Shown: positions 2,618 to 64,000 of the stretch, piece after piece
Position numbering within the stretch: position 1 is the stretch's first letter
Layout: every line of letters starts with the position of its first letter
NCBI GenBank assembly: GCA_019096065.1
Contig: JAGUCH010000003.1
Coordinates: 3,410,001-3,474,000, forward strand
Direction: 5' to 3'
DNA: 64,000 bases
Source of the DNA: Paracyclopina nana
Taxonomy: Eukaryota; Arthropoda; Copepoda; Cyclopoida; Cyclopettidae
Made by a program: the position numbers and the translations under genes
Notes under the pieces: generated by a model
Told to the model about the DNA's origin: nothing
Database searches by the model: none
The model's input: only the letters and a program-made list of their open reading frames with translations

Positions 2618-2620
2618 CAT

Positions 2621-12958: not shown

Positions 12959-12968
12959 CATAAATAAT

Positions 12969-14194: not shown

Positions 14195-15497
14195 ACAAGA
14201 GAAGTGCTACTGGGCGAGGCTTAAGGGGGTGCGTTTGCAGATCTGCTACACGCCCCAAAAGAGACTACTATGGAATTTTGGTCGCGGCTGGCTGAATTTG
14301 GGCCGGGGTAGACTTTTGGTTGCTAATAACTCCTAAATGAGTCAATTTAGCCAAAATACTCCTATTTTACGAGCTGCTCAATTTTGCTAGGGCTATCTTT
14401 TGTTTTTTATAAATATTTTCCTAACTATTAGGAATTAAAAGTTGTAAAACAGAGGTGCCAGTTGGCGTTTTCCTTTCTAGATCAATGCAGCCCACTGCAC
14501 TGACTATTTTATTAGAACAGCTGACCCAAACGTTTTCAAAATCACTTGCAGCAGGAGAATTAGTTCAACTGTATAGATAGCAGTATCATAACAAAGACAT
14601 ACCATCTGCTGACTTTTTTGAAGAAACACTTGGGAGTTGAGTTCAAAAACATGTTTCGTTGTGATAAGTCGAGCCACTTTTTTTAGGGCGGATATTTTTT
14701 TTAAAACTGTTACTTTTTTTACTCATGAATAGCATCAGGACTTTAACATCTCGACATTAGGTGTCTCATGTTTATTATAGCCCTAAAACCCTTCTATTTT
14801 ACCATCATGAAGGAAGCAATTAAAAAAGTCCAATACACATATTTGCTTGGGTCTTTATTTCGAACTACTTCTCGGGCCGCAAAAACGCGGTAACTCAGTT
14901 TTTTTACTCGTGCAGTGTCAGCTGAAAATCCCAAAAGTTGCCCATGAAGGCCGCTGGGATCGCCCTACATCAATGTTATTGTTATGATACTTATGTGAAT
15001 AAAGTTGAACTAAGGAGAATGCTTAAGAAGTAGCACTTATCTTTCTATTTAAGTCTCTGGCCTTGCGCTTTTAAAAATGGAAAAAGACAACTTAAACAAT
15101 ACAATTACGAACTGGCCACACATTTTAAGGCTTAAGAATTGTTAGTTTAATAATTATTTTACATCTAGATCATTTAAGAATTTAAAATTGTTCATAACAT
15201 TTGTATGATGGATAGTTTTTGTTCTTTATAATACTTTTGAGGAATTAATTGGCAAAGAAAAGTAACCTTTAGTGTAACTGCGCGGAAAAAAAGCTGCTCG
15301 GGCTACTTTCTTGATCCGCTCGAGAGTTTTATGTAAACAGCTGCCAGCTCTCTGTCTGTAATAATGCGTCAGTCCAGAGACTCTTAGTCAAATAATCACC
15401 TCAACCGAAGGAAGTGGGGAAAGGCGTGAGCTGAAAAAAGAACTCTAAATTATGCACCTCTAGAAAAAAACCAGCAGTTAGTGGAGCAGAAATCAAA
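14195..15497. other. Intergenic and upstream region of TMEM179
   Basis: AT-rich sequence with several T-rich runs and no supported coding frame. The last 200 bp probably contain the TMEM179 promoter and leader, but no TATA box stands out. Confidence 0.45.
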
Positions 15498-17075
15498 ATG
15501 GCGTCCAATGTGCACATGAACATCATCAAAATGGTACAGGGCGTGGGCTACCTGTTCGCCTTCATTCTCAGCCTTGTAATTTGCGTGCCCATGTCGATGA
15601 ATCAAGACCAATTCAAAGGCCGCTGCCTCCTTTTCTCCCAGGGCGAATGGCAGCAAAAAGATGGCCAGTTCATCGTTGCCGATTGGGCGTCGCAAGCTTA
15701 CTGCAATTTCACCATTTTTGTGGCTGTCATCATGTTTGTCATCTCCGTCATTCAACTCGGAAGGTTCTTCAAGTTCCTCAAGCGTGGCCGAGATTCCAGC
15801 TTCTTTTCGGCCTTTGTCGATGTCCTCCTCTGTGTCATCATGTGCATCTTTGTCCTCATCGCAGCCTGTTTCGTCTCCTTTGGATTCAATACTTGGTGCA
15901 ATGAGATGACCAGAAGATTTCCATCTTGCAGTAAGTTAAAATATTTATCAAGCAATGCTCTAGGTTTTAAATGAGGGAGCTTCTATTAAATTTACATGCA
16001 ATGCATCCGGATCTGTACCTTAAATTAATACTTAGAAATAGCAAGATTTTGTCTTTTTGCTTCAAGAGTTGGTAAGAATTTTTTAATGATAGAACAAAAC
16101 CACATTTAAACTCTTGATGGAATCTTGATTTTTTTGGAATTCGGTGCCCTTTTTTGGTAATTTCATGCTTAACTAGTCTTGCTCAACTTGTTGACATTAA
16201 TTAAAGCATGAAAGATAAGAGAGTCTGCTAAAATATTTGTAAATGAGCTTAATATGCTTGTACAACAGCCTTATCTACTAGCATTTCTCGGTAGAGTAGA
16301 AGGCCATACTTAGAAACTAGGTTGCGCCTGAGCCTTGAATCTGGCGATTGAATTTCGTGCAAAGAAACTTGAAACACTCAAACTTTTTTATGCTACAAAA
16401 AAACACCCATAGCAATTAAGAGTGTTTATTTGCTGTTCAGTTTGAGTGCATGGCCTGGCCTCAATTTGAAAGCTTTCACTAAATGACTTTTCAGGTGAGG
16501 CCACAGGAAGTGTGATTGACAAAGCTGATGGTATCGACTCCACCGGATTCTTCTTCCAAATGTCAGTGGCACAATTTGGAGTTTGGCTCTCATTTACAGT
16601 CTGGCTGATGTTGCTGACATTCTCTGTGGTGAAACTGTGCAAGTTTCACCATGAAGAAAATCTCAGGGTCTCCATGGCTAAAGAGAGGAAGAGGCTGCTC
16701 AATGAAGATCTGGTTTCAGAGGTTCCAGTCAACCCGAGTTCAAGCAGCTTTGGTGACAGTCGAAGAAGGCGTGGCCAAAGTGGCAATTCACAAAAGGAAA
16801 CTGGAGATAAGGGCAGGTTTGAAGAGTTGGAAAAGTCAGCCTCCAACGAGGCTGCTGGCCATGACTGTGGTCTGGTCAATGATGTGGTCACCCATGAGGA
16901 TTTCCACCACCACCATGACTCTTCTCCTGTTGTACTGCACCAGCAATCTCATAATGAGGCCATGAATTTAGAGGATGGCAGCATGTCTTCTATGGCCTCG
17001 TCTCAGCATTCTTACAGCTCCTTGCCTAAAGGGAACCAGATCACCATTGAACAGATGCCTGATTTACTCACTTGA
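15498..17075 (+). CDS. TMEM179: Transmembrane protein 179 homologue
   Basis: Four-TM protein of the TMEM179/179B family, whose biochemical role is not established. Exon 1 is 15498-15930 and exon 2 is 16495-17075, joined by a phase-1 intron of 564 nt, the longest in the genic part of this window. Together they encode 337 residues. Family landmarks are the FKGRCLLFSQGEW segment after TM1, VADWASQAYCNF before TM2, RGRDSSFFSAFVDVLL entering TM3, SFGFNTWCNEM, and FFFQMSVAQFGVWLSF entering TM4. Extra to the vertebrate proteins is a long polar C-terminal tail with RRRR, HHHH and SSMASSQHSYSS stretches. It is probably cytosolic. Confidence 0.88.
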
Positions 17076-18217
17076 GAGACGTAGCTTATTTAGCTTTTTT
17101 GGATCATTCTCTTATTAGGCTTTGAATCAGAGGTGAGCCATGCTTGCTTTATAATGTTTTCATTACCAAAAACAACCACATTTTTTATTTGTCTCCTCAT
17201 TTTGAAGGATTGGATGGATATTATATAAATATGACGATAGTGTAGGGCATTTTTATTAATAAAATTCAGCACCTGCTTTTTTATGTTGTGAACAGTTTCT
17301 TCTAAAAGCTTGACAATCATAGACCTTCATCCTGATGGGCTTGGTGATGAAGAGCCTATGAAATTCAAGCTTGTTGAATGTTAGGCGTAATCCAATGAAG
17401 GCCAAAAATGATTGTACTTCCAAAAATCATTAGTGTCTTTGTCTGAGCTAGTAGTTGTCTGAATATTCTGTCTTGATGCTCTTGGACAGTGGTGCTCTTT
17501 GAAACTTGGAAGTTTCCCAATTTTGTCTGGAAGCTTCCACAAGCTCATTGAGCCTTGGAGGAACTCCAATGATGCCCAAAAATGAAGTTACCATACCACT
17601 CAACTTAATTAATCCGACTAATGGGCTTTAAAAAGGTGGCCGGGCTTTTGACTTGGTGATCTTGGTTGATTTTGCTCCTCATGAGCCAAGTTGGAATTGA
17701 AGATGGGAACCAAATGCCAATTACGATTGGAGGAAAAACTGAGGAGCGGAAAAGTTGGGCTGACTTATGAAGCTTGATCAGGAGGTCGTCCAGGATGGAT
17801 TGCAATCCAGGTGGCTTGCTGTTCAAGTAGGATATGATAATTGAAGAGCAACTTATACAGACAATTGGACAAACTGTGTCATTTATCAACTTTAAAAATA
17901 GGCCGAATGCAATCTTGGCTTTGCTGTCTTGGAGATTTATTTCTGGAAGCATTGCATACGGTGATGAGAGTAGCGAGGTCATTAATAAGTGAAGTGTTCT
18001 ACGCAGTCAAGATTATGAAAAGCCATACGTAAAGAGGCCACTTGACTGCTCAGCGCAGTTAAGCTCTGGAAATTAATTCTTTGGTAATCATATACATTAA
18101 GAGACCTCAGAACAACATTAATAATATCAAGGCGCTGCTTACACATACTCATTATTACATGTAATATTTCTTGACTAGAGATCTAAAAGGTGGCATTTAA
18201 TGTAAATGCCGTAACTG
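17076..18217. other. Intergenic with weak local direct repeats
   Basis: No gene was recognised. Short imperfect direct repeats occur, for example the CCAATGA..GCCCAAAAATGA-like words near 17390 and 17564, together with recurring cttggaagtt/aagcttcc words between 17340 and 17600. This suggests a decayed repeat. A 125-codon minus-strand frame at 17605-17982 lacks a domain and was not called. Confidence 0.4.
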
Positions 18218-19330
18218 CTACCTTTTGTTGTACTTTGCTACTTTGGTCTTGAATCCATTGGCCTCAAACTCGGACTTGATAGTGGACCCACTCCAGAGGT
18301 CTCCTATGTGGATATCCAAGGTGGCTAGGATCCAAATGAGAACAATGCAAACCAGAATTATGATAATCAACACTGTATAGCCGTGAACGGAGGAGTCGGG
18401 AATGGACTCCATACTTTCGAGAGCAACGATGGCAGGAGCATAATTCGGCTTCAGCTCAAGTACATGCCTAAGATGAAGGGCTGCTTCCTGATAGTGGCAG
18501 TAGGCCTTTAAAATCTCACCAAGCTGGTAATGTTGCATCCAAGCATTTTGATCCGGAGGCTGAACCTAAAGAAGAAATCATCAATGACCAAGGAAACAGA
18601 TAGAAATTGTCAGCTATCTTACTTCAAGGGACCGTCGAGTAAGGAAAATGGCATCATCCAGATATTGCAAGTTGAACAACACTCTTGCCAAGTTGAGGAG
18701 AATATCAGCATTGTTCGGTGAAACAGCTAAGGCCCGGCGAAAGCACTCGATCGACTTGTGTGTGTCCCCCTTGATGCGCCAGAAGTTGCCAATTTGATTG
18801 TACAGCTCTACTGACTTTGGCTTGTCCCGCTTGGCCTTTTTCAATTTCCGCTCAATCTGGTCAATGACCCCGGAGGCCGTGTCAGCCCTGACACCTCTAA
18901 GAAGGCTTTTAAAAGAGGACGTCACCTCTGGCTCTGGAATGCTGGGGTGCGAGGCCCGATTCTGGATGCCAACCAAGTGGTCATAGTAGGTGAAATTGAC
19001 GGGCTTGCCGCAGTCGAGGCCCTCAATTATGGCCTTGTCGTCGTCGCTGACCTCGTCAATCTTGAGGCCACGATTATTGATGCAATTCTTGCACGCCGCA
19101 GCTGTTTTTCGCCACATGCCCTCCGAGTTGGTGACAGTGCTCATGAGGATGTCCAGCATCTTGTCCTCGGACTTGGATTTGGTGGAGGCCAACAGGTCGT
19201 CTGTCAAGGCTGCGGGCATGATTTTGCCCGAGTCGAGCCTCCATGTGTATGAGGTCTCGGAGTCAGTCAAAGCGTAAAAGCTTGACAGGGCTATGATCAC
19301 GCCCATGATCATATTTCTGAGAGGCCGCAT
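18218..19330 (-). CDS. Short TTC17-like TPR protein with C-terminal membrane anchor
   Basis: Two exons (18623-19330 and 18218-18565, phase 0, 57-nt intron) encode 351 residues. The start was taken at MRPLRNMIMGVIIALSSFYA, which looks like a signal peptide or anchor. The frame stays open 45 codons further upstream. The body aligns by eye with the C-terminal part of TTC17: a CGKPVNFTYYDHLVGIQNRAS block, then TPR repeats (about 185-280) with NFWRIKGDTHKSIECFRRAL and NLARVLFNLQYLDDAIFL, and HLRHVLELKPNYAPA. Unlike human TTC17 (over 1,100 residues), it ends in a TM segment (about 299-318) and a short basic tail. TTC17 has been linked to ciliogenesis and actin. The role of this short form is unknown. 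Confidence 0.72.
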
Positions 19331-19730
19331 TATGGCCTTGGCATCGCCGCTGTGTCCTTTGACGTAGATGATCTTTGTCAACTTCTGAGGCTGCCTTCGA
19401 CGAACGAATATGAAAGCAGCAGCTGACTTGTGTTTAATGTGCAGTGAAATGGTGAACTTGACCAATATCTTTAAGGCTTAAAAGCCTGATTGACTCCCAT
19501 AAAGAGTTATGAAAACCGCCAGATATTAAATTGCATATTACAAAAAGCTACAGAAACGGCATAATGATAAATAGTTATATCCACTAATTTTATAAGGAAC
19601 ATATTTAAAATACCAAACTTTTTTGTGTGTAGATCGAGATACAATTCGATCAGTGTAAGATATACACAATAGAAAACTTTCGAGTCATAGCAGCACATAC
19701 ATTTTTCCGTCTAATCGAAAAAGCTGAAAA
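19331..19730. promoter_or_regulatory. Divergent upstream region of the TTC17-like gene and PSMD6
   Basis: About 400 bp lie between two divergent start codons. No clear TATA box is seen in position for PSMD6. The 63-codon frame on the minus strand here is unsupported. Confidence 0.35.
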
Positions 19731-20885
19731 ATGCCTGCAGAAAACCTAGAAGAGCAAGGCTTATCCAAGGTTCCTGACCTAGAATTGGCTCAGCTCAAGT
19801 TTGAAGTTGCGCATGGCTTTGAGAGTGAAGCCAAACTTCTGGCTCACATCAAAAAAGATAAAATGGCCCCATTTTACCGGTCCGTATGCAAAGAGTTAAA
19901 GTGGAAAGAGGATGCAAAGCTCTGGGCCGATATGAGTGCTGAAAATGAAAAAGATCTCAAAGTTCTTGAAGAGAAGATCACAGATGCCGAGACCAACTTG
20001 GGCGAGAGTGAGCATCGAGAAGCACTTTTGGCGAAAGCAGAGTATTTGACCAAAATTGGCGACAAGGATGCTGCTATAGAAGCAACTAGAAAAACCATGG
20101 AGAAAACTGTGGGATTAGGAAACAAGATGGATTTGATCTTCCTTAACATCCGCATTGGCCTCTTTTGGATGGATCATGCCCTGGTGAAAGCCAACTTGGA
20201 TAAAGCTACTACTCTCATGGAAGAGGGTGGAGACTGGGACCGTCGTAATAGGCTCAAGGTCTATGAAGGGCTGTATGCCATGGCTATCAGAGACTTCACC
20301 AGGGCTGCCAATCTCTTCTTGGAGACTGTGTCAACCTTCACCAGTTATGAGTTGATGGACTACACTGTATTCGTTAAGTATGCTGTGTATGCTGGCATGA
20401 TTGCCCTGGAGCGACGCCAACTGTTTGAAAAGATTGTAAAGGGATCTGAAATCTTGGAGGTCCTCCACCAATGTCCCAAGGTGAAGCAGTACTTGAACTC
20501 CCTGTACAACTGTCAATATTCCGAGTTTTTTGCTTGCTTGGCTGATGTGGAGCAAATGGCCAAAAAGGACAGATACTTGCGCCCTCACTATGCTTTCTAT
20601 GTGAGGGAGATGAAGATCAAAGCGTTTGGTCAACTCTTGGAGTCGTATCGCAGCCTGACCCTCAAATACATGGCCGAAGCCTTTGGAGTCACGGATGAGT
20701 ACATGGATCAGGAGTTGTCCAGATACATTGCTGATGGACGACTTCATTGCAGAATTGACAAGGTTGGTGGGATTGTCATTACCAACCGTCCAGACTCGAA
20801 AAACGCCCAATATCAATCAACTATCAAGCAGGGCGACATTTTATTGAATAGAGTGCAGAAGTTGTCCCGCGTCATTAACATTTAA
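19731..20885 (+). CDS. PSMD6: 26S proteasome regulatory subunit PSMD6 (Rpn7)
   Basis: Lid subunit of the 19S regulatory particle, needed for lid assembly and proteasome integrity. The single-exon frame of 384 residues is close to the human length (389). Recognised by [14 protein letters not shown] near the N-terminus, [15 protein letters not shown], the helical-repeat segment [33 protein letters not shown], the [17 protein letters not shown] block entering the PCI domain (about 190-360), [13 protein letters not shown], and the C-terminal [11 protein letters not shown] helix. Its stop is only 12 bp from that of the convergent serine protease homologue, so the transcripts must overlap or be tightly terminated. 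Confidence 0.97.
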
Positions 20886-20897
20886 GTAAATACAGGA

Positions 20898-21979
20898 TTA
20901 TGAGTTATTACTAATCCAATCGAGATACTCGGAAGTCTCTGTGAAAACATATGGAAATGAGTTATCCGCACTGCTGGCACCCCAAGAGGCAATTCCACAA
21001 TGATATTTCCCATCTTTGCACACTAAAGGTCCCCCTGCATCATCCTGAAAGAAAAAAACTTGCTGCTGTAGCCAAAAAAAAAAAACCATGAAGTCCAAAT
21101 GATCTTACAATCCAAGAATCTTCACTCATTCCACAAAGCATTTTCTGGTTAAGTGAGCTCTCATATAAAGCCTCGCACTCAGCGTCACTAATAAGGGTGA
21201 ATCCTTCTTTTTGCAGAACTCCTTCGCCTCCTTTCCAGCCTAGTTGAAAAGCAGCCTCCTCACTTGAAACTGATGTTGAAATAAGGTCGATTTTTGCAGT
21301 TCTGCCGAAAGTTTTCAGACTGATTATTGGGGAAGTTTTGCGGTGAAATTAGTTGCTCACAATGACCCATCAATTGAAAGAGGGGATGCAAGTTTCAGCG
21401 TACAAATGTCATTGTCCAAACTGTAATCATCAAAGTCCGGATGGCTGGTCATTTGTGAAACCATTTGTAATATCTGACCATCGCTATCAGAAGCAAGATC
21501 ATGTTCCCCAATGTAAACTCTTATGTTTGCAACACTGCCTAGGGAGCGGCAGCAAATTGCAGACGTAAGAATGTAACTCTATAGAAGAAGTTTGAAGAGG
21601 ACGAATACAAAATTGTGCTTAGCTCATGCTCACTGGATTAATGATTGCCCCGCTGCACACATGATTACGCCCAAATCTTCCAATTGAGACCTATGTTGAG
21701 CTCATTAACAAACTATAAAAAGCCGTTTTGCCACCATCTTACTTGAAACTTGAATTCATGTGGCTGAGTTGGCTTGTTCAACCTCTCGCCTTGGAATCCT
21801 AATTTAGATTCCAATCCTTTAGATATCAGATGATTTCTGATGGGATAAGTGCAATTTCGCTATTATTCTTATCAATTTTGCGAATGAATTTGTAACCTTA
21901 TAGAAGTAGGGAGGCGGACAGAGCTCCATCCAGGAGAAACCAAGCCCAAAATAAGAAGCAGCAGTGCGCTTGTTTCCAT
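20898..21979 (-). CDS. Secreted serine protease homologue, catalytically dead (S1 fold)
   Basis: Six exons (21897-21979, 21743-21836, 21634-21690, 21361-21578, 21109-21319, 20898-21044), all with GT-AG introns of 41-64 nt and consistent phases, give 269 residues. A signal peptide (METSALLLLILGLVSPGWSS) is followed by PHEFKFQVSIGRF, the usual FPFQVSL entry, and HVCSGAIINPSYILTSAICC. The position of the catalytic His in TAAHC is Ile86. The Asp is kept in LDNDICTLKL (Asp135). The GDSGGP motif reads DDAGGP, so the nucleophile is Ala224. The Cys191-Cys220 pair is missing on both sides (DSWIDDAGG; WGASSADNS). The reading frame is intact, so this is a non-catalytic homologue and not a pseudogene. 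Such proteins act as cofactors or binding proteins in arthropod haemolymph. There is no clip domain. Confidence 0.85.
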
Positions 21980-22022
21980 GCTTAACTTAGCTCAAGTGAC
22001 CTCTAAGCGAATGATTGCGGTG

Positions 22023-22030
22023 CATATATA
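22023..22030 (-). promoter_or_regulatory. TATA box of the serine protease homologue gene
   Basis: The minus strand reads TATATATG about 45 nt upstream of the ATG. A start site near 22000 would leave a leader of about 20 nt, plausible for a TATA-driven secreted-protein gene. Confidence 0.45.
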
Positions 22031-22234
22031 ATTAAATAAACGGTCAATAAAGATTAGCTTTATCATAGTTGCCTTTACGTAGAATTCTGATAGCCAATAC
22101 TAGGAAATATCGCCAATTCTAACTGAAAATACCTTTCCTCAACATGAAGTTCTCGTCAAATTAAAATGGAAAGCCAAATGGAAAACACTTCTAGGACTAT
22201 TTCAGCGGTTTTTAATAAAAAAAGGGAAATCAAT

Positions 22235-22630
22235 TTACAATTTAGCGTTAATATTGACCCTAGCCAGGCTCTTTTCAATGACGTCATGAGGATTATGGAG
22301 GCCTTCGTGGAACTCAGGTCGTCCGAGAACGTCACTGAAGGAAATCACGTCATCGTTGCCTTCCAAGATATCCAACTGAAAGTTGCTTCGTGCAGAGATG
22401 CAGGGGAAATGTCCTACATTGGCCACTGCTCTCTTCTCCATCATCATCTTGAGCGGAGCATGAAGCCCTTGCATCTTGCGCAACTGCTCGCCCCAAGCCT
22501 TTTCTTGATTCTTGGCAAAATGTCGTTCTGACATTTCAATAGGGTGAATAGGCATCATATCGTCAACTTGACGCTTCAAGCCAGTGGCAAGCTTGTCATC
22601 CAGACCAAAATCTGCTTTGATATTGGCCAT
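22235..22630 (-). CDS. POMP: Proteasome maturation protein (POMP/Ump1)
   Basis: Assembly chaperone of the 20S core that guides half-proteasome dimerisation and is degraded when the core matures. The single-exon frame has 131 residues (human 141). Family features are MMPIHPIEMSERHFAKNQEK (human PSHPLELSEKNF), LRKMQGLHAPLKMMMEKRAV (IQGLFAPLKLQMEFKAV), FPCISARSNFQLDILEGNDD (NLSLDVLRGNDE), then ISFSDVLGRPEF. The C-terminal part is diverged. It lies 1.3 kb from PSMD6, separated by the protease homologue. The plus-strand frame across the same bases is a shadow. Confidence 0.93.
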   Translation of the reverse strand: MANIKADFGLDDKLATGLKRQVDDMMPIHPIEMSERHFAKNQEKAWGEQLRKMQGLHAPLKMMMEKRAVANVGHFPCISARSNFQLDILEGNDDVISFSDVLGRPEFHEGLHNPHDVIEKSLARVNINAKL

Positions 22631-26375: not shown

Positions 26376-26738
26376 CTGCTTTTAAATATATATATTTTTA
26401 ATGAATGCTCAGAAATGCATCATCTGAGGCAGCTTGCTTTTGATAATTTGTCATACTCTAACAATAATCCGGTTAAAACTACTCTTATGCGTATTAAAAA
26501 AATGTGGCAAAGTGGCTGTTAAGTAGTGTGGCTACTCTAATTTTGGTTGCTTCTATAGCCTCTTTCGAAACGCCCAATTGAACAAAAGAGATTTTGATAA
26601 TGATTTGAGGGAAATTAACATAAATTCTCATTTATCCATTCATACCCATCTGGAACATCTTGAGAAGTCCTAGAGAGAGGGCCACTGAAGAAGTTACACT
26701 ACATCAAAAAAGTGTTTTTATGGCATCGAAGGTATTAA
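26376..26738. other. Intergenic, start of the repeat-rich region
   Basis: AT-rich DNA after the F-box/actin gene up to the TTAA that bounds the inverted-repeat element. It includes the 3' UTR of that gene. Nothing else is recognised. Confidence 0.45.
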
Positions 26739-28213
26739 GAGTGAGAATCCCATAGCAATGCAGAATGACTCTACTGGCTCCGACAGCTTTTCAAAAATCT
26801 TATGGACCATCTTTAGGGGCTACCCCTAGATACTCACTGTACCAAAGGGTTTTTGCCCTCGGACCCCTGGGAGGGGAGATACACCCCCCCAAAGTTTGGA
26901 GAAATTCTTATGTAGTAAAACTTTGGACCCCCCTGGTGGCCACATAAGGCAACCCCCAGATGCTACCAAAACAAAATTTTTTATTATTATTATGATATGT
27001 TGTGAACAATTTTTATTATGGTCATTTTTTGTTTTGGTAGCATCTGGGGGTACTTCCTTAATAAAAGTTTTATGGTTTTTTTGAAAAAATGGTGTTAGTT
27101 GCAAGAATTAAGTTTGTATGTTAAAAAATTCATTTTTCACATCTAAAAATGACATTTTATTATAATTATTGGCTGTGGCAAGCAACTTTCATTTTTACAA
27201 AAATGAGGTTTGATTGCGTTTGAAGATACTTTTATAATAAACATACATCAGTCTTGTTTAAACTTATATATTTGTTAAATGAACTTAAATACATAGAGCT
27301 GAAAATGAAATTTTATTATAAATATGTGGTATATTCAACAACTTTTATTTTTGTCATGATAGTGTTGGATCATTTTTGGGGGCACTTTAACAGTAAATGT
27401 AATAGTTTTTGTCAAATAACTGCCCCTAAAATTGAGAACACCTAAGTATGACAATAATAAAAGTTGCTACTAATGCCCCCTATTTATAATAAAATTTCAT
27501 TTCCAGATCATGCATTTTCATTTTATCACTCATAAACTAAGGTTTTATAATTAAACCATTTTTTTCCAAAAATCCTAAAATGTTTATTGAGGAAGTACCC
27601 CCAGATACTACCAAAACAAAAAATGACCATAATAAAAATTGTTCACAACATATCATAATTATAATAAAATTTCTTTTTTAGGCCATAAATCTGAAGTCTG
27701 TATAACAAAGTTATGTTGGCTAAAATTAGGAAAACTTTGACGGACAATATATGGCTCCAAACAAAAAGGGTCATTTATTTATTCTTTTATTTGAAAGTAC
27801 TAACCTTTGGCTGACTCTGTGCAAAAAATGCAAAAAAATTCATCCGCGGGAAGGTTGCTCAATTTTGCGCCAAAGTTACCCCCTAAAAACAACATATTGC
27901 CCCCTGGAGCACAGTGGGCATGCATGGCGACAACTTTTATCCCATTTCCCAAGAGAGCCTTAGGGGGTATAACAATGCACAAAAAATGGGTAGGTAAAAG
28001 TTGCCTCATGTGGCCACCAGGGGGGTCCAAAGTTTTACTACATAAGAATTTCTCCAAACTTTGGGGGTGTGTATCTCCCCTCCCAGGCGTCCGAGGGCAA
28101 AACCCTTTGGTACAGTGAGTATCTAGGGGTAGCCCCTAAAGATGGTCCATAAGATTTTTGAAAAGCTGTCGGAGCCAGTAGAGTCATTCTGCACTGCTAT
28201 GGGATTCTCACTC
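26739..28213. mobile_element. 1.5-kb inverted-repeat element bounded by TTAA
   Basis: The outer arms, about 26739-26965 and 28000-28213, are near-perfect inverted copies starting GAGTGAGAATCCCATAGCA and running through CTCCGACAGCTTTTCAAAAA and GGCTACCCCTAGATACTCAC. Further inward, 26960-27080 is matched inverted by 27560-27660, so the fold-back is longer but interrupted by about 320 bp of extra sequence (27680-28000). TTAA flanks both ends (26735-26738 and 28214-28217), as in piggyBac-type insertion, although the ends do not start CCC. No transposase frame exists. It is non-autonomous. The inserted part is related to a segment of the 7-kb units. Confidence 0.65.
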
Positions 28214-28392
28214 TTAAAGGCTTAACCTATGGGGACTCTCCAAATTTGCCACTTCAGTCTAAGCCTAAGCTAGCTTTGACGAGCATTTTCCCCATCTGCT
28301 ATACAGTATTTATTCGGTTGTAGGTGACATTAATTTGGGCATAAAATTAACCATTTTTAAAGCATATGTTCGTAGCAGTGGAACTTACACAA

Positions 28393-51686: not shown

Positions 51687-51815
51687 TAAAACGAAGTCGC
51701 GGAGGAATTTCTAGAACCCTAGCTGGAGGTAGCTACAAAAGGCTGCGACTGAATAGGCAGGGATCAAATGCAAGCAAAAATTTATTTTCACAAAAATTTA
51801 GATTACGCTTGGTTT

Positions 51816-54717
51816 ACGTGTTTGGTGTGTTTGGCCGTGTTCGCTGTGTTTGACGGTGTTCGCTGTGTTCGGCCGTGTTCGGTGTGTTCGGCCGTGTTCG
51901 GCCGTGTTTGCTGTGTTCGACGGTATTCGCTGTGTTCGCCCGTGTTCGGTGTGTTTGCCCGTGTTTGCTGTGTTCGCTGTGTTTGCCCATGTTTGGTGTG
52001 TTCGCTGTGTTCGGCTGTGTTCGGCAGTGTTTGCTGTGTTCGCCCGTGTTCGGTGTGTACGGCTGTGTTTGCTATGTTTGCCCGTGTTCGCTGTGTTCAC
52101 CCGTGTTCACTTTGTTCGGCTGTGTTCGGTGTGTTCGCCCGTGTTCGGTGTGTTTGGCCGTGTTCGGTGTGTTTGGCCGTCTTGGCTGTGTTCGCCCATG
52201 TTCGCTGTGTTCGCCTGTGTTTGCTGTGTTCGCCTGTGTTTGCTGTGTTCGGCCGTGTTCGCTGTTTTTGCCCGTGTTCGCTGTGTTTGCCCATGTTCGC
52301 TGTGGTCGCCCGTGTTCGCCCGTGTTCGCCCGTGTTCGGTGTGTTCGGCCGATGTTTGGTGTATTCGGCCGTCTTCGCTGTGATCGCCCATGTTCACTGT
52401 GTTGGCCCATGTTCGCTGTGTTAGTCCGTGTTCACTGTGTTTGCCCGTGTTTGGTGTGTTCGCCCGTGTTTGCTGTATTCGGCCGTGCTCACTGTGTTCG
52501 CCCATGTTTGCCCGTGTTCGGTGTGTTCGGCCGTGTTTGCTGTGTTCTCTGTGTTCGCCCATGTTCGGTGTGTTTGCCCGTGTTCGGTGTGTTCGCTCGT
52601 GCTCGCTGTGTTAACCCGTGTTCGCTGTGTTCGCCCGTGTTCGCTGTGTTCGCCCGTGTTTGGTGTGTTCGGCCATGTTCACTGTGTTTGCCCGTGTTTG
52701 GTGTGTTCGGCCGTGTTCGCCGTGTTCGCCAGTGTTCGCTGTGTTCGCCCTTGTTCGCTGTGTTCAGCCGTGTTCGCTGTGTTCGCCTGTGTTCGCTGTG
52801 TTAGCCCGTGTTCACTGTGTTCGGCCGTGTTCAGCTGTGTTCGTTGTGTTCACCCATGTTTGCTGTGTTTGGCCGTGTTCGCTGTGTTCGCCAGTGTTTG
52901 CTGTGTTCGCCCGTGTTTGCTGTGTTCGTCCGTGTTCACTGTGTTCAGCCGTGTTTGTCCGTGTTCACTGTGTTCAGCCGTGTTTGGCCATGTTCGCTGT
53001 GTTCCCCCGTGTTTGCTGTGTTCGGCCGTGTTCACAGTGTTTGCCCGTAATTGGTGTGTTCGCCCGTGTTCGCTGTGTTCGCCCGTGTTCGCTGTGTTTG
53101 CCCGTGTTTGCTGTGTTCGCCCGTGTTCGCTGTGTTCGTCCGTGTTCACTGTGTTCGGCAGTGTTCGGTGTGTTCGGCCGTGTTCGCCGTGTTCGCCAGT
53201 GTTCGCTGTGTTCGCCCTTGTTCGCTGTGTTCAGCCGTGTTCGCTGTGTTCGTCTGTTTTTGATGTGTTCACTGGTGTTCGCTGTGTTCGCCTGTGTTCG
53301 CTGTGTTCGTCCGTGTTCACTGTGTTCGGCCGTGTTCGTTTGGTTCGCTGTGTTTGCCCGTGTTTGCTGTGTTCGGCCGTGTTCACTGTGTTTGCCCGTA
53401 TTTGGTGTGTTTGCCCGTGTTCGATGTGTTCGCCGGTGTTTGCTGTGTTTGGCCATGTTCGGTGTGTTCGGATGTGTTCGCTGTGTTCGCCCGTGTTTTC
53501 TGTGTTCGTCCGTGTTCACTGTGTTCGGTGTGTTCGGATGTGTTCGCTGTGTTCGCCCGTGTTTGCTTTGTTTGGCCGTGTTTGCTGTGTTTGCCCGTGT
53601 TCGGTGTGTTCGGCCGTGTTAGCTGTGTTCGGCTGTGTTTGCTGTGTTCGGCCGTGTTCGCTGTGTTCGCCCGTGTTACCTGTGTTCGCCCGTGTTTGCT
53701 GTGTTCCGCCGTGTTCGCTGTGTTTGCCTGTGTTTGGTGTGTTTGCCGTGTTCGCTGTGTTCGGCCGTGTTCGCTGTGTTCGGCGGTGTTAGCTGTGTTC
53801 GCCCGTGTTCGGTGTGTTCGTCCGTGTTTGCTATGTTTGCCCGTGTTCGCTGTGTTCGCCCGTGTTCACTGTGTTCGGCCGTGTTCTGTGTGTTCGCCCG
53901 TGTTCGGTGTGTTTGGCCGTCTTTGCTGTGTTCGCCCATGTTCGCTGTGTTTGGCCGTGTTCGTCCGTGTTCACTTTGTTCGGCCGTGTTCGGCCGTGTT
54001 CGCTGTGTTCGCCCGTGTTTGCTGTGTTGGGCCGTGTTCACTGTGTTTGCCCGTGTTTGGTGTGTTCGCCCGTGTTCGCTGTGTTTGCCCGTGTTCGCTG
54101 TGTTCGCCCGTGTTCGCCCATGTTCACTGTGTTCGTCCATGTTCACTGTGATCGGCCGTGTTCGGTATGTTCGGCCCTGTTCGCTGTGTTCGCCCGTGTT
54201 TGCTTTGTTCGGCCGTGTTCTCTGTGTTTGCCCGTGTTTGGTGTGTTCGTCCGTGTTCACTGTGTTCGGCCGTGTTCTGTGTGTTCGCCCGTGTTCGCCC
54301 GTGTTCGCCCGTGTTTGGTGTGTTCGGCCGTGTTCGGCTGTCTTCGCTGTGTTCGCCCATGTTCACTGTGTTCGGCCATGTTCGCTGAATTCGGCCGTGT
54401 TCGCTGTGTTTGCCCATGTTCGCCCGTGTTTGGTGTGTTCGCCATTGTTCGCTGTATTCGGCCGTGTTCACTGTGTTCGCCCGTGTTCGCCCATGTTTGG
54501 TGTGTTCGGCCGTGTTCGGTGTGTTTGGCTGTGTTTGCTGTGTTCGGCCGTGTTCGCTGTATTCGGCCGTGTTCCCTGTGTTCGCCCGTGTTCACTGTGT
54601 TCGCCCGTGTTCGCTGTGTTTGCCCGTGTTCGGTGTGTTCGCCCGTGTTTGCCTGTGTTCGGTGTGTTCAGTGTGTTCGCCGTGTTCGCTGTGATCGCTG
54701 CGTTCGCCCGTATTCAC
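51816..54717 (+). repeat. 19-bp satellite, left arm
   Basis: About 150 units of GTGTTCGCTGTGTTCGCCC and close variants, made of a 9-mer plus a 10-mer of the same core (GTGTTCG). Variants replace CG with TG or CA at each CpG (GTGTTTGCT, GTGTTCACT, CCCATG, CCTGTG) or swap GCT/GGT and CCC/GCC. The unit has no stop in any of six frames and its length is not a multiple of three, so long frames arise on both strands. None is called as a gene. Confidence 0.95.
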
Positions 54718-54718
54718 T

Positions 54719-55081
54719 GCTAGTTTCAGTTCTTATTTTGCACTTGGAGACAAGTCTTGTCAAAACTAGATTATAAAAGGCCAAAGTTTGGCCTTTTTCG
54801 AAAAATGCAATTTTGCTCTTGCAATTATTCACGTTACGCGAGTTTTGCTCCCAGGTTAAAAAATGTCCAAAAAATATGCTAGTTTCAGTTCTTATTTTGT
54901 CCTAGGAGCCCAGTCTTGTCTTAACTAGATGAAAAAGGCCAAAGTTTGGTCTTAGTCAAAAATACAATTTTGCTCTAGCATTTGTTCACGTTACGCGATT
55001 TTCGCTCCTAGCTCAAAAAGTTGCAAAAAAATATGCTAGTTTCAGTTCTTATTTTGCACTAGGAGACAAGTCTTGTCAAAA
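54719..55081 (+). repeat. Tandem repeat of about 158 bp at the left edge of the core
   Basis: Two full copies and a truncated third, each starting CTAGTTTCAGTTCTTATTTTG (54719, 54879, 55036) and containing GGCCAAAGTTTGG and TTCACGTTACGCGA. The third copy stops abruptly at the GC-rich segment. Confidence 0.8.
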
Positions 55082-55082
55082 C

Positions 55083-55380
55083 CCGCCCCCAGGGGCCTGG
55101 GGGCCCCGGGGCTGGCACCCCCGGGTTCCTTAGGGTCAGGGCTACACACTGGCATTGGAATTGACCCACTACCCCCATCGGGCCCCAAGTAAGCCCCACC
55201 CCCAGCTAACGGAGCAAACGACTAGAGAGACTGAACTTAAACATTTCACCCATTGGGGAATCGCTCAGCGATTCGCCCATTACCCCATCGCGACCTACCG
55301 CAACCTACCACAACCCCCCCCAGATGACCCCTGGGGGACCTAGGACACCAATTTTGACCCCGATTTTGGGCCCCGCCCCC
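55083..55380. other. GC-rich patch in the fold-back core
   Basis: C- and G-rich sequence (CCCGCCCCCAGGGGCCTGG and similar) starkly different from the AT-rich surroundings. A 62-codon frame across it looks like chance. It may be a fragment of another repeat captured by the element. Confidence 0.6.
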
Positions 55381-55549
55381 ACTATGTAATCCGTTTCTTA
55401 ACTCCTAAGCATATTACCGACCCACTATACTTTATAATGACACAAACTTTGGCCCCCTGACCCCGTTTTTGACCCCGTTTTGGGGGGCCACCCCAAATAT
55501 GGACCCCGTTGTTTTTCGCAGATTATCACTCGGAACGAGCCCAGAACTA

Positions 55550-57000
55550 ATTTTTGAGATACAGCTGAGTCCTTTAAAGAGCCAACTCAGCACAGTCAGC
55601 TGATTTCAAAACTGCTGAGTCACTTTCTCAGCACTTTGTATCTCAGAAACGGTGAGAGATATCAAAAAACTTATTTTGCAAAAGTTGCTCAGCACCCCAA
55701 AATACCCATAAATACCAAGTCTCAGCATCTCAGCTAAGTGACTCAGCAATCCAAAATGACAAGATACGGCAAAGTCATTGAAGCAAAAGTTGTTGCAAAT
55801 AAATCAAACATCATTTTGACCGAGTCTCAGCAAAGTTTCCACACTTTGACCCCCAATATCTCAGCAACGGAGCATCTCAGGAAACTTCAATTTACTGTTT
55901 TGAAGTCAGGCTGAGCTCCTCTACAACTTTTGCTTTATAGTCAAGGCCATAAAATGACTTCCCAAAAAGTCGAGTTTTTCTAGCCTTAGAAAAAGTGGCC
56001 GATTTTCCAAAGTGCTTGGATTGAGCTGAAACTTGGTGCTATTGTTCTCCGTCACATTCTGAGCAGATAATCCCAAGTAAACATATGCCCAAAAACGCTC
56101 AGCAGCTGAGTTATCCAGCCTCCCATTTGACCCGATTTTCAGGTTTTTACTCAATAACTCAGCAGCATGATGAGATATATCAAATGTCTTTACTGATAAA
56201 TGATTACTGTCTTATGGGCTATTAGAAAGTGTCATCAGTTTTTATCACAACTCAGCTGGTTCTCTGCTGAGCAGGGTTTTATGCTGAGCATATCTGGCTA
56301 AATAACTCCGCTGCTGAGCTGCAAAGCACCAAATCCTTTGGTGTGTAGATCTAGTAGATCATTTGTGCCAAGTCTCAGCGCAATCGGAGAACTCAGCCAA
56401 AAAGAGCACTTTTTCTGGGGGCTCAGCAGTAGTAAACTTTGACGATCGATATCTCAGCAACGGAGCGTCTCAGCTGACTTCAATTTACTGTTCTGAAGTC
56501 GGGCTGAGCTCCTCTTCAAGTTTGTACTTCAAAGTCAAGTCCACAAGTCCACTTCCAAGTCCGCTTGCTCTGTACTGCTCAGCGCTATCTCAGCTGGTAA
56601 TTGTCCGATTTTAAAACTGTTTACACCAATGGAATACTGAGACTCAGCAGATCATTTCATAGCAAAGTTGATATCTCCACTTTTACTTGCGCCAAACCTT
56701 AATGAAAAGCCCTATGTACTACGTAGTACATAGCCCTGTACTTAAAACTCGTATCCAATGCCAAAATTCGAAAAATGCCCCGATTTTGGAACTATTTACA
56801 GTTTTGGAAATGGGAGACCAAACTAAACACTTTTTATTACATAGTAAACAAGATAGCTCAGCTAGAAGTCTCCGTAAAACTCAGCAGTTAGGCTGCAATT
56901 AAGCGGTAAACTTTGGCGCGTGATATCTCCGGTTCTCGACGAGACATCTGGCTCCAATTTGAACCTATGAAGTCAGGTTGACCACCTCTACAAGGTTTAT
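55550..57000. repeat. Core region dense in CTCAGC/GCTGAG motifs
   Basis: The hexamer CTCAGC or its complement occurs dozens of times. A longer unit containing ATCTCAGCAACGGAGC, CTTCAATTTACTGTT and GGCTGAGCTCCTCT appears near 55857 and 56450, with a third diverged version near 56918. It is therefore an old long tandem repeat of about 590 bp. No coding frame is supported. Confidence 0.65.
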
Positions 57001-57054
57001 TAGCAGTCCAAGTTTTTCGCGGAAAATTCCACCTTAGAATGCTATAAATGCTAT

Positions 57055-60000
57055 ACAGCGAAACGGCCGAACACAGCGAACACGGCCGAACACAGCGAAC
57101 ACGGCCGAACACAGCGAACACAGGGAACACGGCCGAACACAGTGAACACGGCCGAACACAGCGAACACGGCCAAACATAGCGAACACGGCCAAACACAGT
57201 GAACACGGCCGAACACAGCGAACACGGGCGAACACAGCGAACACGGGCGAACACGGGCGAACACAGCGAACACGGCCAAACACAGCGAACAAGGACGAAC
57301 ACAGCAAACACAGGGAACACGGCCGAACACAGCGAACACGGCCGAACACAGCGAACACAGGCGAAGACCGCGAACACGGCCGAACACAGCGAACAAGGCC
57401 GAACAAAGTGAACTCAGCAAACACGGGCGAACACAGCGAACACGGCCGAACGCAGCAAACACGGCCGAACACAGCGAACAGGGGCGAACACAGCAAACAC
57501 GGCCAAACACAGCGAACACGGCCAAACACAGCGAACACGGCCGAACACCGTGAACATGGCCGAACATGGCCGAACACGGCCAAACACAGCGAACACGGCC
57601 GAACACGGCCGAACACAGCGAACACGGCCGAACACAGCGAACACGGGCGAACACGGGTGAACACAGCGAACCCAGCCAAACACAGCGAACACGGCCGAAC
57701 ACGACCGAACACGGCCGAACACGGCCGAACACGACAAACACGGCCGAATACAGCGAACATGTGCAAACACAGCAAACACGGCCGAACACAGGGAACACGG
57801 CTGTACACAGCGAACACGGCCGAACACAGCGAACACGGCCGAACACAGCGAACACAGGGAACACGGCCGAACACAGTGAACACGGCCGAACACAGCGAAC
57901 ACGGCCAAACATAGCGAACACGGCCAAACACAGTGAACACGGCCGAACACAGCGAACACGGGAGAACACAGTGAACACGGGCGAACACGGGCGAACACAG
58001 CGAACACGGCCAAACACAGCAAACAAGGACGAACACAGCAAACACAGGGAAAACCGCCGAACACAGCGAACACGGCCGAACACAGCGAACACGGGCGAAC
58101 CCAGCGAACACGGCCGAACACAGCGAACACGGCCGAACACAGTGAACACAGCAAACACGGGCGAACACAGCAAACACGGCCGAACGCAGCAAACACGGCC
58201 GAACACAGCGAACAGGGGCGAACACAGCAAACACGGCCAAACACAGCGAACACGGCCAAACACAGCGAACACGGCCGAACACCGTGAACATGGCCGAACA
58301 TGGCCGAACACGGCCAAACACAGCGAACACGGCCGAACGCGGCCAAACACAGCGAACACGGCCGAACACAGCGAACACGGGCGAACACGGGTGAACACAG
58401 CGAACCCGGCCAAACACAGCGAACACGGCCGAACACGACCGAACACGGCCGAACACGGCCGAACATGACAAACACGGCCGAATACAGCGAACATGTGCAA
58501 ACACAGCAAACACGGCCGAACACAGGGAACACGGCTGTACACAGCGAACACGGCCCAACACAGCGAACACGGGCGAACGCAGCGAACACGGGCGAACACA
58601 GTGAACACGGCCGAACACAGCGAACACAGCGAACACAGCCAACACGGCTGAACACGGCTGAACACAGCTGAACACAGCGAACACGGGCAAACACAACGAA
58701 CACGGCCAAACACAGCGAACACGGCCGAACACAGCGAACACGGCCGAACACCGCGAACACGGCCGAACACGGCCGAACACTGCGAACACGGCCGAACACG
58801 GCCAAACACAGCGAACACGGCCGAACACAGCGAACACGGGTGAACACAGCGATCACGGCCAAACACAGCGAACACGGCCGAACACAGCGAACACGGCCGA
58901 ACACCGCGAACACAGCCGAACACGGCCGAACGCAGTGAACACGGCCGATGACAGCGAACACGGGCGAACACAGCGAACACGGCCGAACACAGGAACACGG
59001 CCGAACACAGTGAACACAGCAAACACGGCCGAACACAGCGAACACGGGCGAACACAGCGAACGCGGCCGAACACAGTGAACACAGCAAACACGGGCGAAC
59101 ATAGCAAACATGGCCGAACACAGCGAACACGGCCGAATACAGCGAACACAGGCAAACACAGCAAACACGGCCGAACACAGGGAACACGGCTGAACACAGC
59201 GAACACGGGCGAACACAGGGAACATGGGCGAACACAGTGAACACGGGCGAACACAGCAAACAAGGCTGAACACAGCAAACACGGGTGAACACAGCGAACA
59301 CGGGCGAACACAGCGAACACGGCCGAACACAGTGAGCACAGCAAACACGGGCAAACAAAGCAAACATGGCCGAACACAGCGAACACGGCCGAATACAGCG
59401 AACATGGGCCGAACACAGGGAACACAGGGAACACGGCTGAACACAGCGAACACGGGCGAACACAGGGAACATGGGCGAACACAGTGAACACGGGCGAACA
59501 CAGCAAACACGGCTGAACACAGGGAACACGGCCGAACACAGTGAACACAGCGAACATGGGCGAACACAGCGAACACGGCCGAACACAGGGAACACGGCCG
59601 AACACAGTGAACACAGCAAACACGGCCGAACACAGCGAACACGGACAAACACAGCGAACACGGCCAAACACAGTGAACACAGCAAACACGGGCGAACATA
59701 GCAAACATGGCCGAACACAGCGAACACGGCCGAATACAGCGAACACGGGCAAACACAGGCAAACACGGGCGAACACACCGAACACGGGCAAACAACGTGA
59801 ACACGGGCGAACACAGCAAACACGGCTGAACACAGCGAACACGGCCGAACACAGCGTACACGGGCAAACACAGCGAACACGGGGGAACACAGCGAATACG
59901 GCCAAACACAGCGAACGCGGCCGAACACAGCGAACACGGCCGAACACCGTGAACACGGCCAAACACGGCCGAACACAGCGAACACGGCCGAACAAAGCGA

Positions 60001-60080
60001 ACACGGCCGAACACAGCGAACACGGGCGAACACGGGTGAACACAACGAATATGGGCAAACTCGGGCGGACACAGCGAAAA
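57055..60080 (-). repeat. 19-bp satellite, right arm (inverted)
   Basis: Same satellite as the left arm on the opposite strand (CGAACACAGCGAACACGGC and variants), about 3.0 kb. Some blocks of several hundred bases are repeated within the arm (for example around 57040-57900 and 57860-58540), a sign of unequal exchange. Open frames of 1012, 895 and 649 codons here are products of the stop-free unit. Confidence 0.95.
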
Positions 60081-60274
60081 AATTCTAAGTTTTGCTTGCA
60101 TTTGATCCCTGCCTATGCAGTCACGGCCCTACAAAAAAGCTCAGCATTCCATCTTCTAGCCACAATTGTAAATTATTGAGAGTAAATCGTTCTCAAAACT
60201 CAGTTCCAAAAAATAGCCTAAATGTGGCAGGCTGGCCTACGGTAGCGTGACAACTGCCCATTTTGGTTCCACTG

Positions 60275-61997: not shown

Positions 61998-64000
61998 ATG
62001 ATGAAGTCCACATTTGTGGTAAGCATAAGTGTTTGGCAGCTGCACAACTCCTAATAAACTCTTTGTAGGTAATTTTGGCTTCCTGCTTGCTAAGCCAGGC
62101 TATGGCTGTCCCCATCACCCCTTTTGGACTCATTCAAAAAGCCTTGAGCAAAAGGCAGTCTAACTACGGGCAACCCACTGCTGTGATTGCAGCTGCCCCA
62201 GCTTCCTACGGAGCCAGCCAAGCTTGCCGAACGGTCAATGAGCAGCAGTGTGACACTGTTAATGAGCAGCAATGTAACACTGTGAACCGCCAGCAGTGTA
62301 ACACTGTCAACCGCCAGCAATGCTCCACTGTCAACGAGCAGCAGTGCAGCACCGTCAACGAGCCGGTCTGCAACACTGTGCAGAAGCAACAGTGCAGCAC
62401 TGTCAATGAGCAGCAATGCCGAACCGTCACCGATACCGTCAACGAGGAACAGTGCAGAACCGTCAATGAGCAACAATGCCAAACTGTCAATGAACAGCAA
62501 TGCTCAACGGTGAATGAGCAGCAATGCCAAACCGTCACGGACACAGTCAACGAGGAACAGTGCTCAACTGTCAACGAGCAGGTCTGCAATACCCTCAACG
62601 AGCAGCAATGTCGTACTGTCCAGGATACTGTGACTGAGAACCAGTGCAGCACCGTCAACGAGCAACAATGCCAGACTGTCACTGACACCGTCAACGAGCA
62701 GCAGTGTGACACTGTCAATGAGCAAGTATGCAACACTGTCTTCGATACAGTCAATGAGCAGCAATGCCGTACCGTCCAAGAGGAGAAATGCGAGATCCAG
62801 TACATGACCCAATATGAGGAGCAATGCCGCACTGTCCAGGAGCAGGAGTGCAACACCGTCAATGAGCAGCAGTGCAGCACCGTCAACGAGCAGGTCTGCG
62901 AAACTGTCCAAGAGCAGCAATGCACAACTGTCCAGGAGCCCCAATGCACCACTGTGAATGAGCAAGTGTGCAACACTGTCAACGAGCAGGTTTGCAACAC
63001 TGTCACAGACACTGTCAAGGAGCAGGTGTGCAACACCGTCAACGAGCAGCAATGTAAGACAGTTCAAGAGCAGCAATGCAACACTGTCAACGAGCAAGTT
63101 TGCCAAGAGGTCTGTGACAATCAATCAACCTATGGTGGTGCTTCATCAGCACCTGCCAATTATGGTGGAGCACAATCTGCACCGGCTGGCTACGGAGCTG
63201 CCCCTGCCTGCAGGCAAGAGTGCAGAAGCGTCCCAAGGCAAGAATGTAGGAGTGTACCCCGCCAGGAGTGCCAGAATGTTCCCAGACAGCAATGCCAAAA
63301 TGTACCCAGACAAGTTGCTCGACAAGAGTGCAACAACGTACCAAGGCAGCAATGCCAAAACGTGCCCAGGCAGCAATGCCAAAATGTTCCCAGGCAGCAG
63401 TGCCAGAATGTGCCCAGGCAGCAATGCCAAAATGTACCCAGGCAGCAGTGCCAGAACGTCCCAAGACAGGAGTGCAGGAATGTTCCTCGCCAGTCTTGCG
63501 AGTCTGTCCCAAGGCAAGTGGAAGAGCAAGTCTGTCAAAACATCCCCAGGCAAGCTTGTGAAAATGTCCCCAGACAAGTACCCAGACAGGAGTGCCAGAA
63601 TGTCCCTCGGCAAGAGTGTAGGAATGTCCCCAGACAAGTGGCCAGGCAGGAGTGCCAAAATGTCCCGAGGCAAGTGTGCAACCCAGTTCAGAGGCAGGTG
63701 CCAAGACAGGAATGCAGCAATGTCCCCAGACAACAATGCCAAAATGTACCTCGACAGCAGTGCCAAAATGTCCCAAGGTAACAAAGTTGAACGGCCTAAT
63801 CATAACTCGTCATTGATTTGTTGCATCTTTTTTCAGACAAGTTCAAAGGCAGGAATGTAGGAATGTTCCCAGACAGCAATGTCAAAATGTACCCAGACAG
63901 CAATGCCAGACCGTTCCTCAGCAAGCCTGCGAAAATGTCCCCAGGCAAGTACAACGGCAAGAGTGCCAGAACGTACCCAGGCAACAATGCCAGAACGTAC
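61998..64000 (+). CDS. Secreted cysteine octapeptide-repeat protein, 5' part
   Basis: Exon 1 (61998-62018, seven codons, ATGATG start), exon 2 (62069-63777) and exon 3 (63837 to beyond the window) join in phase. Residues 1-20 or so are a signal peptide (MMKSTFVVILASCLLSQAMA), followed by a dibasic SKRQ. Block 1 (about 62219-63112) consists of eight-residue repeats of the type C-x-TVNEQQ. A Gly/Ala/Tyr-rich linker (YGGASSAPANYGG) leads to block 2 (from about 63211), with repeats C-QNVPRQQ, which continues across the exon 3 junction. Nearly every eighth residue is Cys, with Val three or so after it. The composition suggests an extracellular, disulfide-crosslinked structural protein of cuticle, egg or tube. 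The family is not named here. Confidence 0.85.

Follow-up and report, generated by a model that had tools for sequence, protein, structure and literature searches.

F1, a foldback transposon family with long satellite arms in the copepod Paracyclopina nana, probably moved by a Mutator-like transposase

Introduction

Two long arrays of a 19-bp satellite stand face to face in a 64,000-nucleotide stretch of the genome of the copepod Paracyclopina nana (C3:3410001-3474000, referred to here as the window), and the question that they raise is whether they are neighbours by chance or the two arms of one mobile element. An earlier note on this DNA, made from the letters alone, had proposed a giant fold-back transposon bounded by inverted termini and by an exact target duplication. 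The genome (92 Mb in 10 contigs) has now been analysed, and the results make it likely that the element belongs to a family of non-autonomous foldback DNA transposons, F1, which is moved in trans by a probable Mutator-like (MULE, Mutator-like element) transposase. The origin and spread of new short satellites is an open question, and F1 is of interest in this respect as well.

The F1 family and its insertion sites

The window element occupies 8,388 bp, and its borders (Table 1) are exactly those drawn in the earlier note. A 39-bp terminus is found at both ends in inverted orientation, with 36 of 39 positions identical, and an exact 8-bp duplication, CTACAAAA, directly flanks the element on both sides. 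When the 23-bp core of this terminus was searched for in the genome with up to 3 mismatches, 49 places were found (25 plus, 24 minus), the reversed-pattern control giving none. From these, 32 make 16 inward-facing pairs with a spacing of 2.8-23.4 kb, the window element included, and these pairs constitute family F1. An exact duplication flanks 13 of the 16 pairs, being of 8 bp in 11 of them and of 9 bp in two (C3:3165 and C3:4598), against 0 of 240 mismatched left-right pairings of ends used as a control. The earlier note had proposed a search for further copies with different 8-mers duplicated at their ends; 15 further pairs were found, and the duplicated 8-mers vary between copies.

An empty site with a single target in a related haplotype had been named as another check; paralogous empty sites, none of them allelic, fit three insertions, the target being exact or different by one base. 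Insertion C2:511 lies within a 169-bp array, the adjoining units of which (92-97.5% identical) run through its target, as do units in other copies; among four units inspected, TGCTGCTA occurs once and exactly in three, and as a one-base variant in the fourth. The paralogous site of C5:7253 shows 78% identity and a target with one mismatch, and that of C3:4598, which lies in the window itself (27970-28118), shows 76% identity and a target with a one-base gap. Window positions 26735-28217 hold an element-like sequence with a 219-bp inverted repeat (97.7% identical), whose relative on C3 is the target of insertion C3:4598.

The common plan of F1 consists of a tip, a short unique stretch, a satellite arm, a 157-160-bp tandem array, a variable middle, the inverted satellite arm and again a tip. 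Where Tandem Repeats Finder (TRF) reports the inner array, the number of 157-bp units goes from 2.3 in the window element up to about 42 in C4:2253, and the middles often carry 169- or 340-bp arrays. As in DNA transposons with terminal inverted repeats (TIRs), there are inverted termini, target duplications and (paralogous) empty sites with a single target copy; as in foldback (FB-type) elements, there are long inverted arms of variable-number tandem repeats and non-homologous, variable middles. The middles are so described because no other copy matches more than 258 of the 1,494 bp of that of the window element, while the tips and the 157-bp array are common to the copies. It is virtually certain that F1 is a genuine foldback transposon family.

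Satellite arms

Every one of the 16 paired copies has satellite arms. Those measured, in 15 copies, go from 82 to 2,979 bp, the window element having the longest pair; the left arm of the sixteenth, C5:7280, is broken by an insert of 5.4 kb that carries identical direct repeats of 384 bp. A 35-mer of two arm units, searched with up to 3 mismatches, has at least 1,000 matches in the genome (control, 0). Among 1,000 matches listed, 842 fall inside the 16 paired copies and 53 in partly read unpaired copies, the other 105 being without an assigned place. Among 100 of the at least 1,000 matches that were listed by position, 98 belong to the 16 copies, and the remaining two are found 10.2 and 13.8 kb inward of tips without a partner. 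The second of these two bears on a refuting condition named in the earlier note, an arm alone without the terminus: it belongs to terminus C3:5683188, and no 23-mer terminus was found beyond the match, that stretch being unread.

The earlier note had described the arms as 3-kb inverted arms of one 19-bp satellite. Two facing arrays of this unit are indeed there, and self-comparison by blastn aligns 51741-54719 with 60128-57093 in inverted orientation, at 78.5% over 3,136 columns. They are not, however, an inverted copy of one 3-kb block, because two 800-bp pieces of the left arm fit the right arm about equally at all 11 offsets (scores of 0.84-0.87 for the first piece, highest at offset 0, and of 0.83-0.87 for the second); the 78.5% is a similarity at the level of the satellite.

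Copies C2:194 and C2:255, 61 kb apart, are a single insertion that is present twice along with its surroundings, their left flanks agreeing at 99.06% over 1,381 bp. On the right side, where the flank is repetitive, there are several overlapping alignments, the best being 94.7% over 938 columns. The left arms of these two copies measure 82 bp each, and their right arms 455 and 1,009 bp. In C1:5970 and C4:3436, with a left flank that agrees at 96% over 300 bp, the left arm measures 836 bp in the former and at least 1,461 bp in the latter. Besides, the right arm of the window element contains a near-exact internal repeat at a lag of 734 bp, the left arm having none above 95%. This internal duplication and the differing arms at shared insertions support the proposal, already made in the earlier note, that arms grow by tandem amplification, and it is very likely that they change in place through tandem gain and loss.

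The lengths of the left and right arms are uncorrelated (Spearman rho 0.23, p 0.40, n = 15). In the 7-mer profiles of the 13 copies with both arms of at least 250 bp, the nearest neighbour lies on the same side for 25 of 26 arms (3 of 5,000 side swaps as extreme); the two arms of one copy also resemble each other (7 of 5,000 pairings as extreme), most of all in C4:2253, C3:936, the window element, C3:10560 and C7:5679. These results can be read as each arm gaining and losing tandem repeats separately, and occasional exchange may take place between the arms of one copy. The unique ends show a low mean divergence, 2.1% in the left 80 bp and 1.2% in the right 55 bp, so that length changes in the arms outpace mutation of the ends. 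The left end of the window element differs by a mean of 5.5% from the other copies, compared with 1.6% among those others. Since the arms seem to change in place, the length of the element at the time of its jump need not have been the present 8.4 kb. The F1 satellite is a short satellite found mostly inside one transposon family and seen changing length at a shared insertion, where a right arm has been doubled or halved.

Interior segments

The features of the window element are collected in Table 1. Its right subterminal domain is well matched in C2:15927, C3:936, C3:4598, C4:2253, C5:7253 and C7:5679.

Table 1. Parts of the window element and its flanks, with positions in the window
Feature	Position	Strand	Basis or occurrence in other copies
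Left target-site duplication CTACAAAA	51733..51740		flank comparison
Whole element	51741..60128		
Left terminal inverted repeat, 39 bp	51741..51779	+	near-identical in 15 other paired copies
Unique subterminal stretch between left terminus and arm	51780..51816	+	common to family copies
Left satellite arm, 19-bp unit (9+10) CGTGTTCGCTGTGTTCGCC, ~154 units	51817..54698	+	TRF (153.9 units, 2,882 bp)
Inner tandem array, 157-bp unit, 2.3 copies	54718..55082	+	matched in 14/15 other copies (all but C5:7280)
Middle segment without coding frame	55083..56576		at most 258/1,494 bp matched in any single other copy (15 compared)
Right subterminal domain	56577..56998		286-422 bp matched in 6/15 other copies, 53 bp in 3/15, no match in 6/15
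Right satellite arm, inverted, ~160 units, internal duplication at lag 734 bp	57055..60033	-	TRF (160.1 units, 2,979 bp)
Right terminal inverted repeat, 39 bp	60090..60128	-	sequence match to left terminus
Right target-site duplication CTACAAAA	60129..60136		flank comparison

Outside the satellites, the window element has no frame of 120 amino acids or more. Seventy frames of at least this size were listed in 15 of the 16 copies (C7:5679 left out), and 14 were scanned for domains; the unscanned ones comprise 28 frames outside C7:1853 and C5:7280, mostly running through tandem arrays, and 28 of the 37 frames in those two copies. All clear domains among the scanned frames belong to an insert of the long terminal repeat (LTR) type in C7:1853, the other frames giving no match above the curated cut-off.

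Several copies were considered as autonomous and rejected. The length of C7:1853 (17.6 kb) is mainly due to its LTR-flanked insert, with reverse transcriptase and integrase, and that of C5:7280 to the 5.4-kb insert described above; a palindrome with 10-kb arms makes up most of C3:936 (23.4 kb), and C5:7253 contains a nested sister element. An armless sister subfamily was likewise rejected as the autonomous source, as C4:8999681 and C1:16932188 lead inward into host-like coding frames (judged by eye).

Two of these copies have features of their own. The insert of C7:1853 (L057-L058, C7:1853856-1871450; element positions 2837-15662) is of LTR type, with identical 197-bp direct repeats, and it holds reverse transcriptase/RNase H and integrase frames together with a 797-amino-acid frame on the same strand that matches the Monjiviricetes fusion glycoprotein model (1.8e-76). 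In the palindrome of C3:936 (L044-L046, C3:936993-960434), element positions 1688-11754 and 12212-22257 are 99.5% identical; no clear target duplication is found for it, and it could be either a real inverted duplication or an assembly artefact.

Sister families sharing the tip

The tip pattern GGCCNNGACTGCATA is found at 69 places in the genome (control, 0), and at least two sister families keep this tip yet carry different 9-bp satellites. F2 is represented by a 7,457-bp element nested in C5:7253, with tip GGCCAGGACTGCATACCCAACC, an exact 8-bp duplication, GTTATTTT, and arms of about 2.9 and 3.4 kb made of a 9/18-bp satellite (AACAATCTG). F3, the arms of which consist of the 9-bp TGTACAGCG, has seven apparent pairs with a spacing by position of 0.9-33.8 kb; two have been read, C1:9178503-9181654 with an exact 8-bp duplication and C2:12965817-12969449 without it, and five are unread. 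The 15-bp tip and a period of about 9 bp are common to F1 (19 bp = 9+10), F2 and F3, and their repeat sequences are different; homology among the repeat units, compared by eye, is not claimed, since 9-mers are too short for it.

F1 tips also occur adjoining satellite of the F2 type. Hybrid elements with an F1 end and an F2 end were considered at C1:5970633/5986460, C4:3436439/3444059 and C2:11415949/11420995 and were not upheld; at the first two, a pattern search with up to 2 mismatches found no target duplication of the kind that a hybrid move would leave. F2 satellite is present in the left flank of C4:3436 (L030:1-575), which points to nesting rather than to a hybrid.

It may tentatively be suggested that one lineage of transposon ends retains the 15-bp tip while the satellite behind it gets replaced. 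If that were true, these elements would be makers of satellites: their arms would be made or remade with a constant period and would turn over where they stand, and the elements would take them to new sites and insert into each other. The three families, in which one tip goes with different satellites, also offer a natural series in which to ask whether the transposase, replication slippage or exchange sets the 9-bp period.

The transposase and alternative explanations

According to the mechanism proposed, a transposase acting in trans, most likely of the MULE type, would recognise the conserved terminal GGCCNNGACTGCATA, and everything between two such tips would be moved, with duplication of 8 (sometimes 9) bp of the target. 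Arms would be lengthened or shortened by unequal exchange or replication slippage, and their repeats may give the transposase additional places to bind, a role that published work has proposed for other foldback elements.

Profile searches of the genome gave 5 matches for MULE and 11 for P/THAP9-type transposases. One MULE locus (L066:1192-2835) is a 1,644-bp element in which a 415-amino-acid frame with a MULE transposase domain (1.4e-11) lies between inverted arms, each made of five to six tandem repeats of 15 bp; the exact 8-bp duplications at its ends, GCTGCTAG, were spotted by inspection. It is the F1 plan in miniature. Duplications of 8 bp in 11 F1 copies and of 9 bp in two fall within the range of MULEs (8-11 bp, usually 9). 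A MULE transposase is favoured because of the plan of L066 in the same genome and of the Aedes MULEs, which have the same plan and 8- or 9-bp duplications, and F1 is probably moved by an enzyme of this kind. This most likely assignment rests on architecture and duplication length and not on a linked transposase; F1 itself is not classed as a MULE because no gene is tied to its tip. At another MULE locus, L065 (C6:2030667-2033948), a 537-amino-acid frame combines the MULE transposase domain with a C-terminal RING/C3HC4 finger, and a 15-bp tandem array lies downstream. A further point in favour of a MULE is that most arthropod MULEs are said to start with G/C bases (PMC13359780).

Several observations weigh against this interpretation of F1. 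None of the 5 MULE and 11 P/THAP9-type matches lies between paired F1, F2 or F3 tips, no F1 tip is present within the 3-kb surroundings of four of these genes (two MULE, two P-type), and the tip of the L066 element differs from that of F1. No transposase domain was found in the 14 scanned F1 frames, which were read ignoring introns, so that a spliced gene could escape. Three of the 16 copies are without an exact duplication, namely C7:1853 and the pair C2:194 and C2:255, which are one insertion in two places. Among the 49 core places 17 are unpaired (9 read in part, 8 left unread), and the unpaired F1-like termini C1:16932188, C4:8999681 and C5:7120749 have little or no adjoining arm satellite. 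Searches of the genome with the hAT profile PF05699 and with the Pfam model of KDZ gave 0 matches and are weak negatives, the control genomes being also silent. Finally, P-superfamily elements such as Galileo, with 7-bp duplications, form foldback arms too (PMC3573991).

Regarding the alternatives, it could be argued that nothing moved as a unit and that two unrelated satellite arrays happen to be inverted beside a chance 8-mer, since satellite arrays are common in genomes and the window arms are not position-for-position copies. This is refuted by the 16 pairs with near-identical tips, the 13 of 16 duplications against 0 of 240 and the paralogous empty sites, which uphold the claim of the earlier note that the whole element moved as one DNA transposon, and the probability left to such a coincidence is negligible. 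The arms, for their part, could be frozen after insertion and differ in length only through different source elements, which would fit with copies at different sites differing in both arms; however, lengths also differ at the shared insertions C2:194/C2:255, and C1:5970/C4:3436 (with a shorter shared flank), and the right arm of the window element has its near-exact internal duplication, so that frozen arms are very improbable.

With respect to the enzyme, 8-bp duplications are typical of hAT and P elements too. A P-superfamily transposase (Galileo/THAP9-like) in place of a MULE one would be in line with the 11 genome matches to P-type RNase-H domains and with Galileo, for which foldback TIRs with internal tandem repeats, and extra transposase-binding sites in one subfamily, have been reported (PMC3573991). 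On the other hand, 2 of the 13 exact F1 duplications are of 9 bp, and neither an inverted-repeat-armed element nor an F1 tip is present in the 3-kb stretches around the P-type genes L067 and L068; such an enzyme is considered unlikely. Movement by some other superfamily that duplicates 8 bp of target (hAT, KDZ/Zisupton, Merlin), or by an undescribed one, is rather unlikely: it agrees with the 8 bp of 11 of 13 duplications and with tips that have no linked transposase, yet the models for hAT dimerisation, KDZ and the IS1595-type DDE of Merlin (PF12762) gave 0 genome matches, with a positive control (one genome) for the last only, from which divergent members could escape. A MULE transposase acting in trans on F1 is the explanation that we prefer.

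Other features of the window

The window also carries SARAF, eRF1, RPN7, VPS9 and actin-family frames. At positions 29742-50764 a unit of about 7.0 kb is repeated three times in tandem, the copies being 99.7-99.8% identical; they have long frames starting MPKQSPKKKGK, and both frames of the first copy are without a Pfam family match. A 570-amino-acid frame at 62069-63781, in which 24-bp coding repeats (TVNEQQC / NVPRQQC) follow one another, gave no Pfam match that passed the cut-off. A small inverted pair of satellite arms at 12148-12958, with the 15-bp unit TTTGCCCCTAGG... and the 10-mer CATAAATAAT directly outside both ends, is possibly a further foldback element; the 10-mer duplication is suggestive only, as in the control for this flank repeat (12138/12959) 1,212 of 20,000 random pairs share a 10-mer, a number inflated by the window's own repeats.

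Comparison with known systems

Drosophila FB and sea urchin TU elements have long inverted arms of short tandem repeats, variable middles and 8- or 9-bp duplications. By this description both are close to F1 in plan; the earlier note suggested that the arms of the window element would be much larger than those of Drosophila FB elements.

Tetris of Drosophila virilis is, like F1, an apparently non-autonomous foldback element with variable-number tandem repeats in its TIRs; it has 8-10-bp duplications, its autonomous copy was not found and it was attributed to Mutator by inference (PMC4079207). Unlike those of F1, its repeats are of about 220 bp, in TIRs of up to 1,735 bp, and they also became satellite arrays (PMC4079207), whereas 842 of the 1,000 F1 arm 35-mer matches listed are inside the 16 copies. 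Tm1 of root-knot nematodes resembles F1 in that its TIRs are composite, with 13-15-bp tandem repeats whose number varies and is unequal between the two ends, and in its 8-10-bp duplications; some copies carry a transposase resembling those of Phantom MULEs, and the elements are smaller (1,080 and 2,593 bp) (PMC3169594). In Galileo, of the P superfamily, the TIRs are of variable length, one subfamily having gained and lost internal tandem repeats independently, and subfamilies coexist with no functional transposase found in that genome, which resembles the situation of F1; the duplications are of 7 bp, the repeats of about 210 bp and the longest TIR of 1,264 bp, unlike in F1 (PMC3573991).

In Rehavkus MULEs a minisatellite is found near the 3' end, on one side, with TIRs of 26-400 bp, and in the Phantom MULEs of aphids it follows the transposase frame, also on one side, with TIRs of 18-613 bp (PMC6446971). 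Surveys give MULE TIRs of 14-500 bp, with up to 613 bp in a table (PMC6446971), and of 13-1,193 bp (PMC13359780). The window arms, of 2.9 and 3.0 kb, exceed the longest published TIRs compared, which measure 1,193 bp (PMC13359780), 1,264 bp (PMC3573991) and 1,735 bp (PMC4079207). In the extracts of the literature searched on such elements, neither arms of about 3 kb made of a 9-10-bp-based repeat nor sister families with one tip and different satellites were found described.

The MULE families Muta1-Muta14 of Aedes aegypti have 8- or 9-bp target duplications, and 10 of the 12 long-TIR families have 9-15-bp subterminal tandem repeats (PMC5225508). As in F1, a short terminal motif is followed by short subterminal tandem repeats in inverted arms, and many derivatives are non-autonomous, differing in the number of their repeats and having middles that are unrelated; Muta1 has been termed a type-2 foldback (PMC5225508). 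Unlike these elements, F1 has a tip without a linked transposase, and the TIR of Muta1 measures 145 bp with 9 repeats (PMC5225508), compared with F1 arms of up to about 3 kb and about 160 repeats. F1 belongs, then, to the known kind of element represented by FB, Tetris, Galileo, Tm1 and the Aedes Muta families, and within it the arms of F1 are unusually long.

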